A stretch of 64,000 nt of DNA from a virus, in the IMG/VR virus record IMGVR_UViG_3300020180_000013, positions 1-64,000 of that record. The stretch is one strand, 5' to 3'. The notes below the pieces were generated by a model. The model did no database searches. It saw nothing but the letters and a program-made list of their open reading frames with translations, and had not been told where the DNA came from. Below are positions 3 through 5,983 of the stretch, piece by piece; positions within the stretch are counted from its first letter, which is position 1; each line of letters opens with the position of its first letter. The position numbers were made by a program, and so were the translations under genes.

Positions 3-368
3 AAAATTCCTTTAGATAGTAGAATAAAAGACTATTCTGATATAATTGATGAATTAAAAATTAAAGAATTAACTATAAATGACTTTGGTTTTCTACCTGA
101 AAATCAAAGAATAAAACTTTTTGCTTCACATAAAATACGAAATATAGTAGATGTAATAAATGAAGGATGGGTTCCTAATTTTAATGATTCTACTGAAAGA
201 AAATATTATCCTTACTTTATCAAAAGGAATGGTGTCTGGGGTTTCGGCTTCTCTGATTATCGTGATAGTGCTTATTCTTACGGCATGGTTGGGCTTTACC
301 AAACTGAAGAAAAGTCTAATTTTGTAGGTAAAAAATTTTTGGATATTTATAGTGATTATTTAGATTAA
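3..368 (+). CDS. DGR target protein, C-terminal part (5' end outside window)
   Basis: The frame is open from the left window edge and ends at TAA; 121 residues are visible. It is not a frame that starts inside the window, so the N-terminus lies to the left. The visible part reads LFASHKIRNIVDVINEGW, then YYPYF, then a variable stretch around GVWGFGFSDYRDSAYSYG, and ends FVGKKFLDIYSDYLD. From memory, this layout (a hydrophobic domain with the variable stretch about 20 codons before the stop) resembles variable proteins of Bacteroidota phages and prophages. The codons at 231-300 differ from a downstream near-copy almost only where that copy has A, which marks this as the variable gene of a diversity-generating retroelement. 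Such proteins usually bind a ligand through a C-type-lectin-like fold; that role is inferred here. Confidence 0.75.
   Translation, partial: KIPLDSRIKDYSDIIDELKIKELTINDFGFLPENQRIKLFASHKIRNIVDVINEGWVPNFNDSTERKYYPYFIKRNGVWGFGFSDYRDSAYSYGMVGLYQTEEKSNFVGKKFLDIYSDYLD
231..300 (+). repeat. DGR variable repeat (VR)
   Basis: This 70-bp stretch aligns without gaps to 391-460 at an offset of exactly 160 bp. I count 19 mismatches; in 17 the downstream copy has A and this copy has G, T or C. The other two are A here against C there at 445, and C against T at the last base. Changes fall mostly in codon positions 1 and 2 of AAC, AAT and AGT codons, so AAC becomes GGC, TTC or TAC. The direction of change makes this the variable copy. 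Confidence 0.85.
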
Positions 369-390
369 TAATATGGTTAAGCATTTAACT

Positions 391-460
391 AGTGTCTGGA
401 GTTTCAACAACTCTAATTATCATAATAGTGATAATTCTAACAGCCAAGTTGAGCTATACT
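391..460 (+). repeat. DGR template repeat (TR)
   Basis: Adenine-rich partner of the variable repeat in the gene just upstream. Of about 24 adenines here, 17 are replaced in the variable copy, against about 2 of 46 non-adenines. In the same frame as the target gene it reads a series of AAC, AAT, AGT and CAT codons, the usual template codon choice in DGRs. The region 369-537 between genes is otherwise unexplained and probably holds the template RNA. An ATG at 373 would give a 33-codon frame through the template, so a decayed duplicate of the target's 3' end is the alternative; the adenine bias argues against it. Confidence 0.82.
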
Positions 461-537
461 TTAATAGTAAGTAATAGATACTAACCTTAGCATCATGCTA
501 AAAAATAGATAAGTAAAAATAAGATCTTAGTAAATAA

Positions 538-960
538 TTGAAAAGTTCTTTTAATAAAAGTAAATTAACTATTGTGGCAAAATTACCGGTAACTGTGGTG
601 TATAAAATAGATGAGGATGGAAATCTTCAACCTAATACAGAAGCAGATAGAATAATGAAAGATTTATTTAAGAAAGATTGTAAACAAGGAGAACTTGTAG
701 AGATAACTTATGAAATACAAAATAATGATCACTCATACGGTCAACTAAGTAAGGTGAAACCTATGGTAAGAGAATTAGCTGCAGAGACTGGAGTAACTTT
801 TATGGAAATGGAAAAGATAATTAAGGAGAAAGTTGGCTTAGTAAATTCTGATGGATCAGTTAAGTCATTTGGAGATTGTAGTAAACAAGAAGTAAGTTCT
901 GCTATACAGGCTTGTGAAGAGTTAATGAGTTTTATACGACCAGCAATAGATGAGCAATGA
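538..960 (+). CDS. Hypothetical protein, 140 aa, TTG start
   Basis: Function not recognised. The frame opens with TTG at 538; the next in-frame ATG would remove the beta-rich N-terminal third, so TTG is preferred. The N-terminal half is strand-rich (LTIVAKLPVTVVYKI). The C-terminal half is helical, with VRELAAETGVTFMEMEKIIKE and then KSFGDCSKQEVSSAIQACEEL. That helical part faintly recalls NinB/Rap-type phage recombination helpers, in which a short helical end follows a beta domain, but no catalytic motif supports this. It is not a reverse transcriptase, nor obviously the helical DGR accessory protein Avd, although it is the first gene after the template repeat. It overlaps the next start by 11 bases, which suggests translational coupling. 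Confidence 0.6.
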   Translation: MKSSFNKSKLTIVAKLPVTVVYKIDEDGNLQPNTEADRIMKDLFKKDCKQGELVEITYEIQNNDHSYGQLSKVKPMVRELAAETGVTFMEMEKIIKEKVGLVNSDGSVKSFGDCSKQEVSSAIQACEELMSFIRPAIDEQ

Positions 961-1249: not shown

Positions 1250-1547
1250 ATTTTGAAACTGGGTCATATACCTTTTTTGTAATCTTATTTTGAGCTTTAG
1301 CTGCATCTTCATATTGATTACATAACCAGAGTATAGTATGCATGTGATATGTTAATGGGTCTTTATCAGCTTCTCCATTATTGATTTTAGCTATCAACTC
1401 AGAAAATTGCTGTACATTTTTAATAGGAAAGAAATGAAATAACATGGCTTGTAATCTTTGATATAGAACATTATCTACTGTGATTTGTATCTCAGTTCCA
1501 TTCTCTATAATATCTACTGGTATATGAGCACTAGTGTCTTCTGCCAT
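1233..1547 (-). CDS. Hypothetical protein, 104 aa, lone minus-strand gene
   Basis: Function not recognised. ATG at 1547 is chosen over an upstream TTG at 1565 because MAEDTSAHIP reads as a natural soluble start. The protein has a strand-rich opening (PVDIIENGTEIQITVDNVLYQRL) and a helical remainder with HMHTILWLCNQYEDAAKAQNK near the C-terminus. It is the only minus-strand gene inside the plus-strand replication block and sits between divergent and convergent neighbours, so it needs its own promoter. It is kept because codon use and coherent protein sequence look real and no plus-strand gene competes for 1250-1587. Confidence 0.6.
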   Translation of the reverse strand: MAEDTSAHIPVDIIENGTEIQITVDNVLYQRLQAMLFHFFPIKNVQQFSELIAKINNGEADKDPLTYHMHTILWLCNQYEDAAKAQNKITKKVYDPVSKSILKE

Positions 1548-1587
1548 GTGGTTTAGTTTTAACAAATATAATTCAAAAAAGTAAGTT

Positions 1588-2304
1588 ATGGAAAAAACTA
1601 TAGATCTAGCTGTAATAAAGCAAAAATTATATGAAAGATTAAGTCCTAGTGGATGGGGAAGTAGGCTTAAATCCTTTCTATTAAGTGAGGAAATGGATAA
1701 GATTTTAGGTAAGCTCTATGAAGAGAGTCAGGATGGAAAAAGGTTTACCCCAGTCTTAAAGCAGGTATTTAGAGCATTTGAAGAATGTCCTTATGGAGAA
1801 TTAAAGGTAGTTATGCTAGGACAAGATGCATATCCACAATTAGGAGTGGCTGATGGTATAGCATTCTCTTGTAGTAATACAGGAGTATTACAACCATCTT
1901 TAAAATATATTCTTCAGGAAGTCCATAGTACTGTATATGGAATGGATAAGTCTTATGATTATAATCCAGATTTAAAACACTGGGCCAATCAAGGAGTTTT
2001 ACTTATTAATACTGCATTTACTACTAGTACTGGTAGAGTAGGTGCTCACTATCTTATATGGAAACCTTTTTTGACATTTGTATTAGATATTATATCTTCA
2101 TATAATCCTGGGATGATCTATGTGTTCTTAGGAAAGGAATCTCAGAAGTATGCAGATTTAATTCCGGATAATACTTATAAAATAATGGTATCACATCCTG
2201 CATCAGCTGCTTATGCTAATGCTAAGACATGGGATTCAGAAGATGTATTTAATAAAATTAATAATTTATTAAGAGTCAATAATAATTTAAAAATTACATG
2301 GTAA
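1588..2304 (+). CDS. ung: Uracil-DNA glycosylase, family 1
   Basis: Removes uracil from DNA by cleaving the N-glycosidic bond. The family 1 water-activating loop is present as GQDAYPQLGVADGIAFS, with catalytic Asp at about residue 80 (usual form GQDPYH). Then come the typical WANQGVLLIN stretch and the minor-groove loop SHPASAAYA with His at about 203 (usual form HPSPLS). Length of 238 aa is normal. The changes GQDPY to GQDAY and HPSPLS to HPASAA are unusual but keep the catalytic Asp and His. Uracil repair fits the DNA-metabolism genes that follow and is common in crAss-like phages. The stop overlaps the next small frame (TAATG). Confidence 0.93.
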   Translation: MEKTIDLAVIKQKLYERLSPSGWGSRLKSFLLSEEMDKILGKLYEESQDGKRFTPVLKQVFRAFEECPYGELKVVMLGQDAYPQLGVADGIAFSCSNTGVLQPSLKYILQEVHSTVYGMDKSYDYNPDLKHWANQGVLLINTAFTTSTGRVGAHYLIWKPFLTFVLDIISSYNPGMIYVFLGKESQKYADLIPDNTYKIMVSHPASAAYANAKTWDSEDVFNKINNLLRVNNNLKITW

Positions 2305-2384
2305 TGAAAACTTTATGGAATAGATTTTCAGATTGGTTTGATAAACATTTTGCATGGTTTTTTACTAATGGTAACAAAAACTAA
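2304..2384 (+). CDS. Small protein, 26 aa
   Basis: ATG overlaps the stop of the glycosylase gene (TAATG). The product starts MKTLWNRFSDWFDKHFAW and is rich in aromatic residues spaced as in an amphipathic helix, so it could lie on a membrane or on a partner protein. It ends one base before the next gene's start. It may be a leader for coupled translation rather than a functional protein. Confidence 0.4.
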   Translation: MKTLWNRFSDWFDKHFAWFFTNGNKN

Positions 2385-2385
2385 T

Positions 2386-2607
2386 ATGACAGAAGAAGAA
2401 AAAATTAAGCTTAATAAACTTAAGCTCTTAAAAAAGACCAATGAAATGATCTTTATTCTTAGAGGAAAAAAGAGTTGGTTTTCAGATTTGGAAATTAATA
2501 ATCCAAGATTTGTGGATTTAATGGCTTCAGGAGTTAAAATGGCTTTTGATAAAACTATTGAGGCAATGAATGAGGAATTTGATAAACCTTTCAAAAGAAG
2601 AATATAA
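2386..2607 (+). CDS. Hypothetical protein, 73 aa
   Basis: Function not recognised. ATG at 2386 immediately follows the preceding small frame's stop and gives MTEEEKIKLNKLKLL. The frame can be opened 16 codons earlier, but that would overlap the 26-codon frame. The protein is almost wholly helical and charged, with a lysine-rich first half and an amphipathic second half (LMASGVKMAFDKTIEAMNEE). Its small size and basic nature suggest a binding or regulatory partner, but nothing in the sequence fixes a role. Confidence 0.55.
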   Translation: MTEEEKIKLNKLKLLKKTNEMIFILRGKKSWFSDLEINNPRFVDLMASGVKMAFDKTIEAMNEEFDKPFKRRI

Positions 2608-2612
2608 TTACT

Positions 2613-2774
2613 ATGAAAAAAATTAGTAGTAAAAAACAAAAGTGGCCAGAAGAAAAATTAACCGGATATTCCAAAGAATGTTTTGAAGCTCTAGCTTATA
2701 TTGTAGGAGATAGAGAAATAGCAATGGGCTATCTTGGAGTATTTGAGGATATTCATAAGAAATATAAAAAATAA
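2613..2774 (+). CDS. Small protein, 53 aa
   Basis: Function not recognised. A complete ATG-to-TAA frame starting MKKISSKKQKWPEEKLTGY and ending with a lysine-rich tail (HKKYKK). It occupies the gap between two clear genes with only a few bases on each side, as expected for a tightly packed operon. The middle reads as a short helical hairpin (FEALAYIVGDREIAMGYLGV). Confidence 0.5.
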   Translation: MKKISSKKQKWPEEKLTGYSKECFEALAYIVGDREIAMGYLGVFEDIHKKYKK

Positions 2775-2780
2775 TAAAAT

Positions 2781-3161
2781 ATGATTAAATATATGAAAAA
2801 TGTATCTTATGTGGCTATACCTGGTTTGACCTATACTAATGAGATCACTAAAGAAATTATGTATAGTTCTTGTCACCAAGTGGCTACTAAAATATGTAAT
2901 TTATACGGTATAACACTAGAGATACTTAGTTCTAAAAGAAGATATAGAAATGTTGTATTACCTAGACAAATCTATTGTTACATGTGTAAGAAATATGTAA
3001 TGCCCAGACCAACATTAAAACTAATTGGTAATTTTATTAATGTAAATCATGCTACTGTTATTCACTCTATTACTACAGTAGAGAATCTTATGTCCACAGA
3101 TACAGAGTTTTCATTAATTATGAAATCAATTGATAAAAAATTTAAACAAAGTAATATCTAG
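2781..3161 (+). CDS. DnaA domain IV-like DNA-binding protein
   Basis: 126 aa. The C-terminal half matches the DNA-binding domain of bacterial DnaA: a basic start (SSKRRYRNVVLPRQIYCYM), then LKLIGNFINVNHATVIHSI, the helix-turn-helix with the HATVIH signature that contacts DnaA boxes. The AAA+ part of DnaA is missing, so this is a stand-alone DNA-binding module. In cells the domain recognises origins; in a phage it could mark the phage origin, recruit the helicase or compete for host DnaA boxes (inferred). An internal ATG four codons in is an alternative start. Confidence 0.8.
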   Translation: MIKYMKNVSYVAIPGLTYTNEITKEIMYSSCHQVATKICNLYGITLEILSSKRRYRNVVLPRQIYCYMCKKYVMPRPTLKLIGNFINVNHATVIHSITTVENLMSTDTEFSLIMKSIDKKFKQSNI

Positions 3162-3164
3162 TAT

Positions 3165-3407
3165 ATGAACAATACTGATTATCCTGTAGGTTCCGATACC
3201 TCAGATGCTCCCTGGAATGAGCAAGATTATGGAGATAAAGAATGTCCTGTATGTATGGGAGATAAATATTTATATTATGCTCCTACAGATAGTGACGGAG
3301 AATATAATAAAGAGTCCTGTCATAATTGTGATGGTAGTGGAGTTATTCCTATGAATAGGCAAGATCATTTAGATAGACTAGAATCTAAAAGAGAAGATAT
3401 GAAATAG
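3165..3407 (+). CDS. Small zinc-finger protein, DnaJ-type CxxC motifs
   Basis: 80 aa. Two cysteine pairs, CPVCMGDK and CHNCDGSGVI, match half of the CxxCxGxG zinc-binding repeats of the DnaJ cysteine-rich domain. The rest is acidic at the N-terminus and has a charged C-terminal helix (LDRLESKREDMK). Likely a small zinc-ribbon adaptor; partner unknown. It is the last gene before a terminator hairpin that overlaps its end. Confidence 0.65.
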   Translation: MNNTDYPVGSDTSDAPWNEQDYGDKECPVCMGDKYLYYAPTDSDGEYNKESCHNCDGSGVIPMNRQDHLDRLESKREDMK

Positions 3408-3436
3408 AAAAACCGGAGTTTTTACTTCCGGTTTTC
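3407..3436 (+). terminator. Rho-independent terminator hairpin
   Basis: The arms GAAAAACCGGA and TCCGGTTTTC flank a short T-rich loop, starting at the stop of the zinc-finger gene. The T run lies within the right arm. The gap to the next gene (to 3519) shows no further structure I can name. Confidence 0.7.
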
Positions 3437-3519
3437 TATGAGTGTTCAGCTTGACTAACTATGAACAAAGAAATATTTTTTACCCCTATTAGTTCTTTTT
3501 TGACTTCTGAAATAAAGAT

Positions 3520-4155
3520 ATGGATTTAATTTTAAAATACTATAAAAAATATATTAACATGCTCGAGATATTTAATTTATTGGCTAAATATGAGCTTTCT
3601 CCTAATCAATATTATATGTTGATTAGCATGAAAGAAGGAATTAGTTGTCCTCAGATAAATGAGGCTCAGGAGCTTAGAGCTCTTATAAGTAAAGATTTTA
3701 TATATACTGGTGAAAAGGATCTTACTCAAAAATCTTTTGATATTATAGCTGAGGTTGAAGGAATGGTTAAACTAGCTAGTAAGAAAGTTACCAAGGCTGT
3801 ATTAGGTCCGGAAGCTAGTGATAGTATAGATAAGTATAGAGAGATGTGGAATATGGGTAAACTACCTTCTGGAGTACCGGCCCGGGTTAATAAGAAAGAA
3901 CTAGAGACTAAATTTCAGAAGTTTTTTCAGAAGTATACTTATAGTTGGGAAGAGATCTTAGCAGCCACTGCTTATTATATAGATCAGTTTGAAAGAAATA
4001 GTCCTCCTTATCTGTATATGAAGAATTCAAGTTACTTTATCTCCAAGATGACTCAGGATAAATCCCAAGAATCAACATTAGCTAATTATATAGAGCTAAT
4101 GAGAAGTGGAGATGATGAATTAAAAGCTAAAACATTTAGTGAAAAAGTAGTATGA
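3520..4155 (+). CDS. Conserved hypothetical protein, 211 aa, winged-helix-like N-terminus
   Basis: Function not recognised. The first third looks like a small winged-helix module (LAKYELSPNQYYMLISMKEG, then a helix and a short hairpin ending in KSFDIIAEVEG). The second half is helical, with a tyrosine- and tryptophan-rich segment (FFQKYTYSWEEILAATAYYIDQFE) and then YLYMKNSSYFISKM. This layout resembles phage replication or loader accessory proteins that precede the helicase, but no motif proves it. The stop overlaps the next start (ATGA). Confidence 0.65.
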   Translation: MDLILKYYKKYINMLEIFNLLAKYELSPNQYYMLISMKEGISCPQINEAQELRALISKDFIYTGEKDLTQKSFDIIAEVEGMVKLASKKVTKAVLGPEASDSIDKYREMWNMGKLPSGVPARVNKKELETKFQKFFQKYTYSWEEILAATAYYIDQFERNSPPYLYMKNSSYFISKMTQDKSQESTLANYIELMRSGDDELKAKTFSEKVV

Positions 4156-4367
4156 GTCCTTCTACTATCCTACCTACATATATTAGAGAGGACTTATATA
4201 ATATGGGATTAGATTATTACTTTGCATTTATAGGAAATAATTTTATTATTACATGCAATGATATTGATATATTCACATTTTATGTACATCCTAACTATCC
4301 TATTTGGGAAACTATGATATTAGATACTATAAAAAGGCTATTCAAAAAGAAATTGATCCATGACTAG
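4152..4367 (+). CDS. Small protein, 71 aa, first of a three-gene family
   Basis: Function not recognised. A short alpha-beta protein: a helix with LYNMGLDYYF, a hairpin ending TFYVHPNYPIW, and a C-terminal amphipathic helix with TIKRLFKKK. The two following genes have the same pattern of an initial helix plus GL, a strand pair, and a tryptophan before a final helix with IK or IQ. This suggests tandem duplication of one small gene. Starts and stops overlap, so the three are probably translated together. This is the most diverged copy. Confidence 0.55.
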   Translation: MSPSTILPTYIREDLYNMGLDYYFAFIGNNFIITCNDIDIFTFYVHPNYPIWETMILDTIKRLFKKKLIHD

Positions 4368-4617
4368 AGAAGATGTATTTCAGAAATTTAAAGATATGGG
4401 TCTTATCATAGCAGATGATGTAGAATACCCGTGTTGGATTACTCCAAATAGATCTCATATTATTAATATCGACCATTATACAGATAGTGGGATTGGAAAT
4501 AATACCGGTGGTATACTTATCCAGAAGATGGATGAAAGTGAAATGGGAAGATGGTATGATTATGAATTAGGTATAAAGATGATACAAGGTATAATAAAGA
4601 AAGCTATAGATCCATGA
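4360..4617 (+). CDS. Small protein, 85 aa, second of a three-gene family
   Basis: Function not recognised. FQKFKDMGLIIADDVEYPCW at the start lines up with FINRLKDLGLVEYADDSWYT in the next gene, and both end in a tryptophan followed by an IQ-containing helix (IKMIQGIIKKAID here, AIKRIQDSIQENL there). It overlaps the genes before and after by 8 and 4 bases. Confidence 0.6.
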   Translation: MTREDVFQKFKDMGLIIADDVEYPCWITPNRSHIINIDHYTDSGIGNNTGGILIQKMDESEMGRWYDYELGIKMIQGIIKKAIDP

Positions 4618-4999: not shown

Positions 5000-5983
5000 A
5001 TGACAGAAAAACCGTGGTCTAGTCAAAGAGATGGGTTCCTAAATAGTCTCCACTACATGAAAGGTAGAATGGAAGGAACTATAAAATCTCTCAAGACTCC
5101 ATGGGCTAAATTTAATGATGCTACTACTGATGGTTTAGAATGGAATTCTGTCACTATAATAGGTGGTAGACCGGCTAGTTTTAAAACAGGATTAAAAGAT
5201 CAGATAATAAGAGAATCATTTAAACTTAATCCTGGAGAAGACTTCCGGGTACTAGAATTCTCATTTGAGATGTTAGCTAGAACAACAGCTATAAGAGAAT
5301 ATAGTAGTATCCTTCAGAAGTCTTATAAATACTTATGTAGTGCAGATGGAAAATTAACTCAGGATGATCTAGACAAATGTTATGCTCATGCTAAAGAAAG
5401 AGTTAAATACCCGATAGATATAGTAGAAGAATCTACTACTGTAGATGAATTTGAGGAGATTGTTATAGAGTACATGAACAATCACTCTGAAGTAATAGAA
5501 AATAAAAAAGTATATAAGAAAACTATTGTTACAATTGATCATACTTTATTATTCAAATTATCTCCGGCTGAAAAAGGTAAGAATGATATGCTGTTTCATT
5601 TAGGTGAAGTTCTTACTAGGCTTAAGAGAAGATATCCTATTGCTTTTATTGTACTTACTCAACTCAATAGAAATGTTGATTCTCCGGAAAGGTGTGAGGA
5701 CGGTAAATATGGTAATTATATTCTTGAGTCAGATATATTTGGAGCTGATGCTATGCTTCAACATGCTGATGTTTTGATAGGTCTCAATAGACCGGGTAAG
5801 CAGAAAATTAGATTCTATGGGCCTGATAGATTTATAATAGATGATGATAAAGTAATAGTAATGCATTTTATTAAATGTAGAAATGGAGATACTAGGTTAA
5901 GTTTCTTTAGAGCAGAATTTGATAAAATGAGATTAGTAGAAATGAATACTCCAGGTCAACAAGAACGAAGATCTAAATCATAA
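5000..5983 (+). CDS. DnaB-like replicative helicase (RecA-fold ATPase)
   Basis: 327 aa. Walker A is GGRPASFKTG at residues 55-64, the DnaB form GxRPxxxKTx with serine-phenylalanine in place of the usual glycine before lysine. The arginine-glutamate region FSFEMLARTTAIRE and Walker B TIVTIDHTLLF follow, then VLTQLNRN, the typical H3 segment of SF4 helicases. The protein is shorter than bacterial DnaB because the N-terminal domain is reduced to a short leader. It should unwind the fork 5' to 3' as a hexameric ring together with the primase and polymerase encoded downstream. It opens the operon 5000-7929 after a terminator. Confidence 0.88.
   Translation: MTEKPWSSQRDGFLNSLHYMKGRMEGTIKSLKTPWAKFNDATTDGLEWNSVTIIGGRPASFKTGLKDQIIRESFKLNPGEDFRVLEFSFEMLARTTAIREYSSILQKSYKYLCSADGKLTQDDLDKCYAHAKERVKYPIDIVEESTTVDEFEEIVIEYMNNHSEVIENKKVYKKTIVTIDHTLLFKLSPAEKGKNDMLFHLGEVLTRLKRRYPIAFIVLTQLNRNVDSPERCEDGKYGNYILESDIFGADAMLQHADVLIGLNRPGKQKIRFYGPDRFIIDDDKVIVMHFIKCRNGDTRLSFFRAEFDKMRLVEMNTPGQQERRSKS

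Follow-up and report, generated by a model that had tools for sequence, protein, structure and literature searches.

A pair of imperfect repeats lies at the left end of a phage contig, and the original prediction, made from the sequence alone, had read it as the variable repeat (VR) and template repeat (TR) of a diversity-generating retroelement (DGR) in a crAss-like phage, with the reverse transcriptase (RT) encoded outside the window or supplied in trans and fast receptor-binding change as its candidate use. Is this locus a DGR, where would its RT be, and what kind of protein would it diversify? The window, i.e. the whole stretch of DNA analysed, comprises the first 64,000 bases of the linear 96,195-bp virus record IMGVR_UViG_3300020180_000013. 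A Crassvirus major capsid protein (PF23898, E 4.5e-30) is present, which bears out the assignment to crAss-like phages. Features of the locus are listed in Table 1.

Table 1. Features at the left end of the window and the basis of each assignment
Feature	Position	Strand	Basis
DGR target gene, 5' end missing	3..368	+	phrog_11581 E 1e-14; family profile A4 E 1e-41; relatives
Variable repeat (VR)	231-300	+	codons GVWGFGFSDYRDSAYSYGMVGLY; inside target ORF 3-368
Template repeat (TR)	391-460	+	reads SVWSFNNSNYHNSDNSNSQVELY in VR frame; 3' CTA/CTT difference as in relatives' IMH*/IMH ends
Structured 3' domain of TR RNA	462..566	+	covariance model R1; place normally between TR and RT start codon
Conserved small crAss-like gene	574..960	+	homologues in G016, G022 and G024 by synteny
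Early gene phrog_12143, marker of early block	1588..2304	+	phrog_12143 match, synteny

The two repeats form a 70-bp gapless alignment at an offset of 160 with 19 mismatches, 17 of which face an adenine in the TR, the downstream repeat (10 A>G, 6 A>T and 1 A>C). Changes thus affect 17 of the 24 adenines of the TR and 2 of its 46 other bases (Fisher P = 6e-9). They fall mainly at codon positions 1 and 2 (11 and 6, with 2 at position 3), 22-45 codons ahead of the target stop at 366-368, and the VR sits at the 3' end of the protein-coding target, the same place as in its homologues. When scored with an ungapped scheme that tolerates changes at A, the pair reached 46.6; the runner-up in the first 12 kb reached 20.2, and the best scores in twelve first-order resamples ranged from 17.4 to 26.0. 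The pair therefore holds as originally described and stands far above shuffled sequence. No third copy was found in the 96,195-bp record, where the best other site matched 27 of the 46 non-A positions against 44 of 46 for the pair, and a search of viral contigs for the exact VR/TR pattern found no other contig carrying it. The CTT/CTA difference at the 3' ends is retained, and the SRLC codons that most relatives carry are absent here, as has been reported of crAssphage LMMB (PMC7290462).

The contig begins inside the target gene, so that its open reading frame has no start codon; 121 codons are visible and, judged from relatives, ~40 N-terminal residues are missing. Single-sequence searches found no close relatives of this protein. 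A profile-guided scan revealed 226 relatives in viral contigs, and 78 loci of the family were found in bacterial genomes, mostly of Bacteroidota such as Dyadobacter, Pedobacter, Flavobacterium, Chryseobacterium and Elizabethkingia. Members are ~120-190 residues long; the core (DAC...ALNEGWxPxW...KYYPWF) and a C-terminal helix are conserved, and one stretch is variable. We retrieved 80 of the 226 viral relatives for locus analysis; a DGR RT was present downstream of the TR in 74 of these 80 loci, many of which are near-duplicates of one another, and an RT was found in 48 of the 50 records that were searched. Many loci contain tandem paralogues, and the TR next to the RT shows differences to the VRs solely, or almost solely, at A. 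Judged from these sequence comparisons, the target is a member of a small-protein family of Bacteroidota phages and prophages that is DGR-diversified in many phages, including crAss-like ones. The early targets of LoVEphage (L009) and BI-TP1 (L008) differ chiefly in the stretch that precedes VGSRLAVKSSE, which is the variable repeat.

In the target relatives, ~105 nt are common to the spacers between the TR and the RT start codon. A covariance model (R1) was built from 36 spacers of RT-bearing cassettes, with this phage left out. It matched positions 462-566 on the plus strand, two bases past the TR, over its full length and with 32.7 bits (E = 7e-4 in 508 kb), a score that carries an 18.9-bit composition-bias correction for the AT-rich stretch and lies below the 46-96 bits observed ahead of known RTs. 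The runner-up in the 508 kb had 19.1 bits, 13.6 bits less, and a search of 3 kb with the filters disabled gave the match an E-value of 4e-6 and the runner-up 11.9 bits. In the alignment, which is fitted to the model, standard pairing is kept at all 9 pairs of the model and at 12 of the 13 of the refined structure, several of which have base pairs other than the consensus. Among relatives the element has two strongly covarying stems: 89.9% of cells are paired versus 67.0% in shuffles, double-sided changes number 165 versus 48, and slid controls are 32-44% paired. Folding 462-566 alone gave a result no better than shuffles (z 0.74), single-sequence folding being uninformative here. The best Rfam match in the region was RT-14 RNA (RF02921), aligned over its full length to 435-552 below the gathering score; RT-17 RNA (RF03020) was above threshold in the TR-RT spacers of four relatives and did not reach the gathering score here. 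According to a review, the RNA trailing the Bordetella TR is the part predicted to interact with the RT (PMC8867640).

Because of the RT-bearing relatives and the conserved RNA after the TR, the identification as a DGR goes far beyond the repeat pair, and the original reading was upheld as far as template, target and RNA are concerned. It is very likely that the locus represents the target, the TR and the TR-RNA part of a DGR of the type found in Bacteroidota phages, in which the target is normally followed by the TR, the structured RNA and the RT. In such an element, a DGR RT would have copied the TR transcript into adenine-mutated cDNA, with the 462-566 domain presumably acting as the recognition part for the RT; this cDNA would then have replaced the VR, giving an early protein with a variable loop. 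A plain duplication of the 3' end of the gene followed by drift, in which the excess of A arose by chance or by AT mutation bias, might be suggested by the AT-rich genome and by a short open frame in the downstream copy. However, the P-value of the asymmetry, the resample scores, the same asymmetry in dozens of RT-bearing relatives and the conserved RNA element refute this explanation for practical purposes, and we consider it hardly credible.

No RT was detected in the 96,195-bp record by PF00078, by tblastn with a phage DGR RT, or by a DGR-RT profile (19 sequences; positive control 2e-175). The expectation that the RT lies outside the window was thus correct and could be extended: it is absent from its usual place after the TR RNA as well as from the entire record, so that the proposed search of the remaining genome for an RT gave a negative result. 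The site of the RT start codon in canonical cassettes is occupied here by gene 574-960, for which no Pfam or PHROG name was found and which is likewise located ahead of the phrog_12143 gene in relatives by capsid protein. Neither an RT nor the target was found in 40 capsid-protein relatives, which implies either acquisition of the module by this lineage or its loss from the others.

Relatives of 108-122 kb are collinear with the record over 0.6-88 kb. Their variable region spans 24-35 kb, compared with ~8.5 kb in this record; by this comparison, an arm of ~16-26 kb past the left end is absent from the contig, and the genome as sequenced is incomplete. A chimeric assembly at the left end was considered and judged unlikely, since this end is AT-rich with the composition of the rest of the phage genome, and the targets of relatives average 40% GC.

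There is an even chance that the RT is encoded in this missing arm, in which case the DGR would be split but complete. Besides the size difference of the variable region, DGRs acting at a distance are known in crAss-like genomes, BT-TP2 and Quimbyvirus (PMC8008677). On the other hand, in those distant cases the TR and its RNA stay with the RT, whereas here they stay with the target, and no RT was found in the arms of relatives. Less probable, though a serious possibility, is that the RT has been lost and the locus is a dead remnant, with a VR frozen from earlier rounds and a decaying TR and RNA. In addition to the absence of an RT from the record, this would be in line with the frequent occurrence of incomplete DGRs in crAss-like phages (PMC7290462, PMC11054128) and with cr109_1 and cr4_1, which keep the early target homologue without an RT. 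Two further records without RT (L097 and L113) contain target genes with TRs shortened to 48-49 nt (L097 5412-5459, L113 5705-5753); these loci are remnants of deleted DGRs. Their mismatches are still at A only, and clean A-only mismatches are thus no proof of current activity. Unlike in L097 and L113, both TR and RNA are of full length in the present phage, which favours, but does not prove, retained function. The low number of differences at non-A bases, the substituted base pairs within the largely kept RNA structure and the 16-26 kb missing from the contig also speak against decay.

Provision of the RT in trans is unlikely. A particular form of it, to which we give still less weight, would be a mobile template cassette that keeps target, TR and RT-recognition RNA and relies on the RT of a prophage in the same cell or of a coinfecting phage. 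If this were true, diversification of an anti-host early protein would be confined to cells in which a compatible DGR is already present. The RNA covariance model offers a handle for DGR templates without RT, which RT-centred surveys miss by design.

With regard to the diversified protein, the target of this phage belongs to the early block, the virion genes being on the other strand, and its relatives adjoin genes for RecT, exonuclease, primase, transposition and DNA methyltransferase. Thus, it is not encoded among virion or tail genes. The marker of the early block, the phrog_12143 gene, is one that we take to be uracil-DNA-glycosylase-like by motif. A DnaA C-terminal DNA-binding domain (PF08299, E 3e-16) was recognised in the small product of an early gene at 2781-3161.

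Structure prediction had been proposed as a check for the C-terminal domain. The AlphaFold models (pLDDT of 86 and 85) combine a helical core with a short strand region, and their variable loop, the VR segment, is of low confidence; no PDB structure matched them, and they speak neither for nor against a C-type lectin fold around the VR. A PDB profile search was empty, and the viral predicted structures resembling the models were only uncharacterised crAss-like and gut-phage proteins.

A tail or receptor-binding role was rejected as the default reading, given that gene neighbourhood and homologues speak otherwise, and the proposal of fast receptor-binding change was not supported for this small early-block protein. 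It is probably an early intracellular protein whose DGR-diversified loop would be aimed at a variable host partner, in line with a published suggestion for Quimbyvirus. Its use in conflict with host functions is more plausible than a use in adsorption.

Gut Crassvirales also bear on the receptor-binding proposal. In four RT-bearing crAss-like phages of the Loutivirinae (cr56_1, cr60_1, cr52_1 and cr53_1), one TR is accompanied by two VRs, one in a tail protein and the other in a distant early homologue of our target, which is a second target apart from the tail target. In cr56_1 (NC_055890.1), the single TR lies between the tail protein and the RT, and 21 of the 22 mismatches of the tail-protein VR are at A. 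Its second VR (5297-5361) is located on the other strand within early gene gp09, the target homologue, and has all 16 of its mismatches at A; TR, RNA and RT are ~55 kb away from this early target. The early VRs of cr60_1, cr52_1 and cr53_1 have 14/16, 12/12 and 12/12 mismatches at TR adenines, respectively, and the R1 element follows the TR in all four phages with 45.8-53.9 bits. They therefore resemble the present locus in the homologous early target and in the RNA element after the TR, and differ from it in that TR, RNA and RT are found at the tail locus with a second VR in the tail protein. The early VR genes of these four Loutivirinae (NC_055890.1; loci L313, L314 and L315) are all annotated as 'hypothetical protein'. 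In their RT genes (L317, L318, L319 and L311), TAG occurs in frame 4-6 times, which would fit a recoding of this codon.

DGR targets reported for crAss-like phages are tail or receptor-binding proteins (PMC7290462, PMC11054128, PMC12386605), and no paper on an early DGR target in crAss-like phages was found in the part of the literature covered. The DGRs of crAssphage LMMB (PMC7290462), Epsilon (PMC11054128) and Zeta (PMC12386605) share with the present one the Crassvirales host genome, the target-TR-RT order and the common occurrence of incomplete cassettes; however, their targets are tail-fibre or receptor-binding proteins of the structural block and not a small early-block protein. Non-structural second targets have been described in Quimbyvirus (PMC8008677) and in four gut prophages (PMC12629997). 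The Quimbyvirus/LoVEphage systems (PMC8008677, PMC12629997) are similar: a second VR lies in a small member of this protein family, next to methyltransferase genes and at a distance from the structural genes. In contrast, their RT is present (split or frameshifted) and their TR is at the tail/RT locus, whereas here TR and RNA adjoin the early target and no RT was detected. Crass-like DGRs have so far been read as changers of adsorption proteins; the present locus and the Loutivirinae suggest that a widespread small early protein is diversified as well. This points to a hypervariable intracellular phage protein, whose role in phage-host conflict becomes testable.

Several observations were made in the records of relatives. 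In BT-TP2 (L007 1671-1790, L010), one TR serves both a large RT-adjacent gene and a distal early target. The BT-TP2 record PQ571279.1 (L007, L010) was deposited as 'complete', and both of its ends lie inside an unannotated DGR target gene; when they are joined, a stretch appears twice, which means that the record was opened at the variable repeat. In L002, positions 1370-4606 (~81370-84606 of the record) encode a terminase large subunit with an intein-like insert containing Hint and LAGLIDADG domains, and GIY-YIG- and HNH-like genes are located near this terminase gene.
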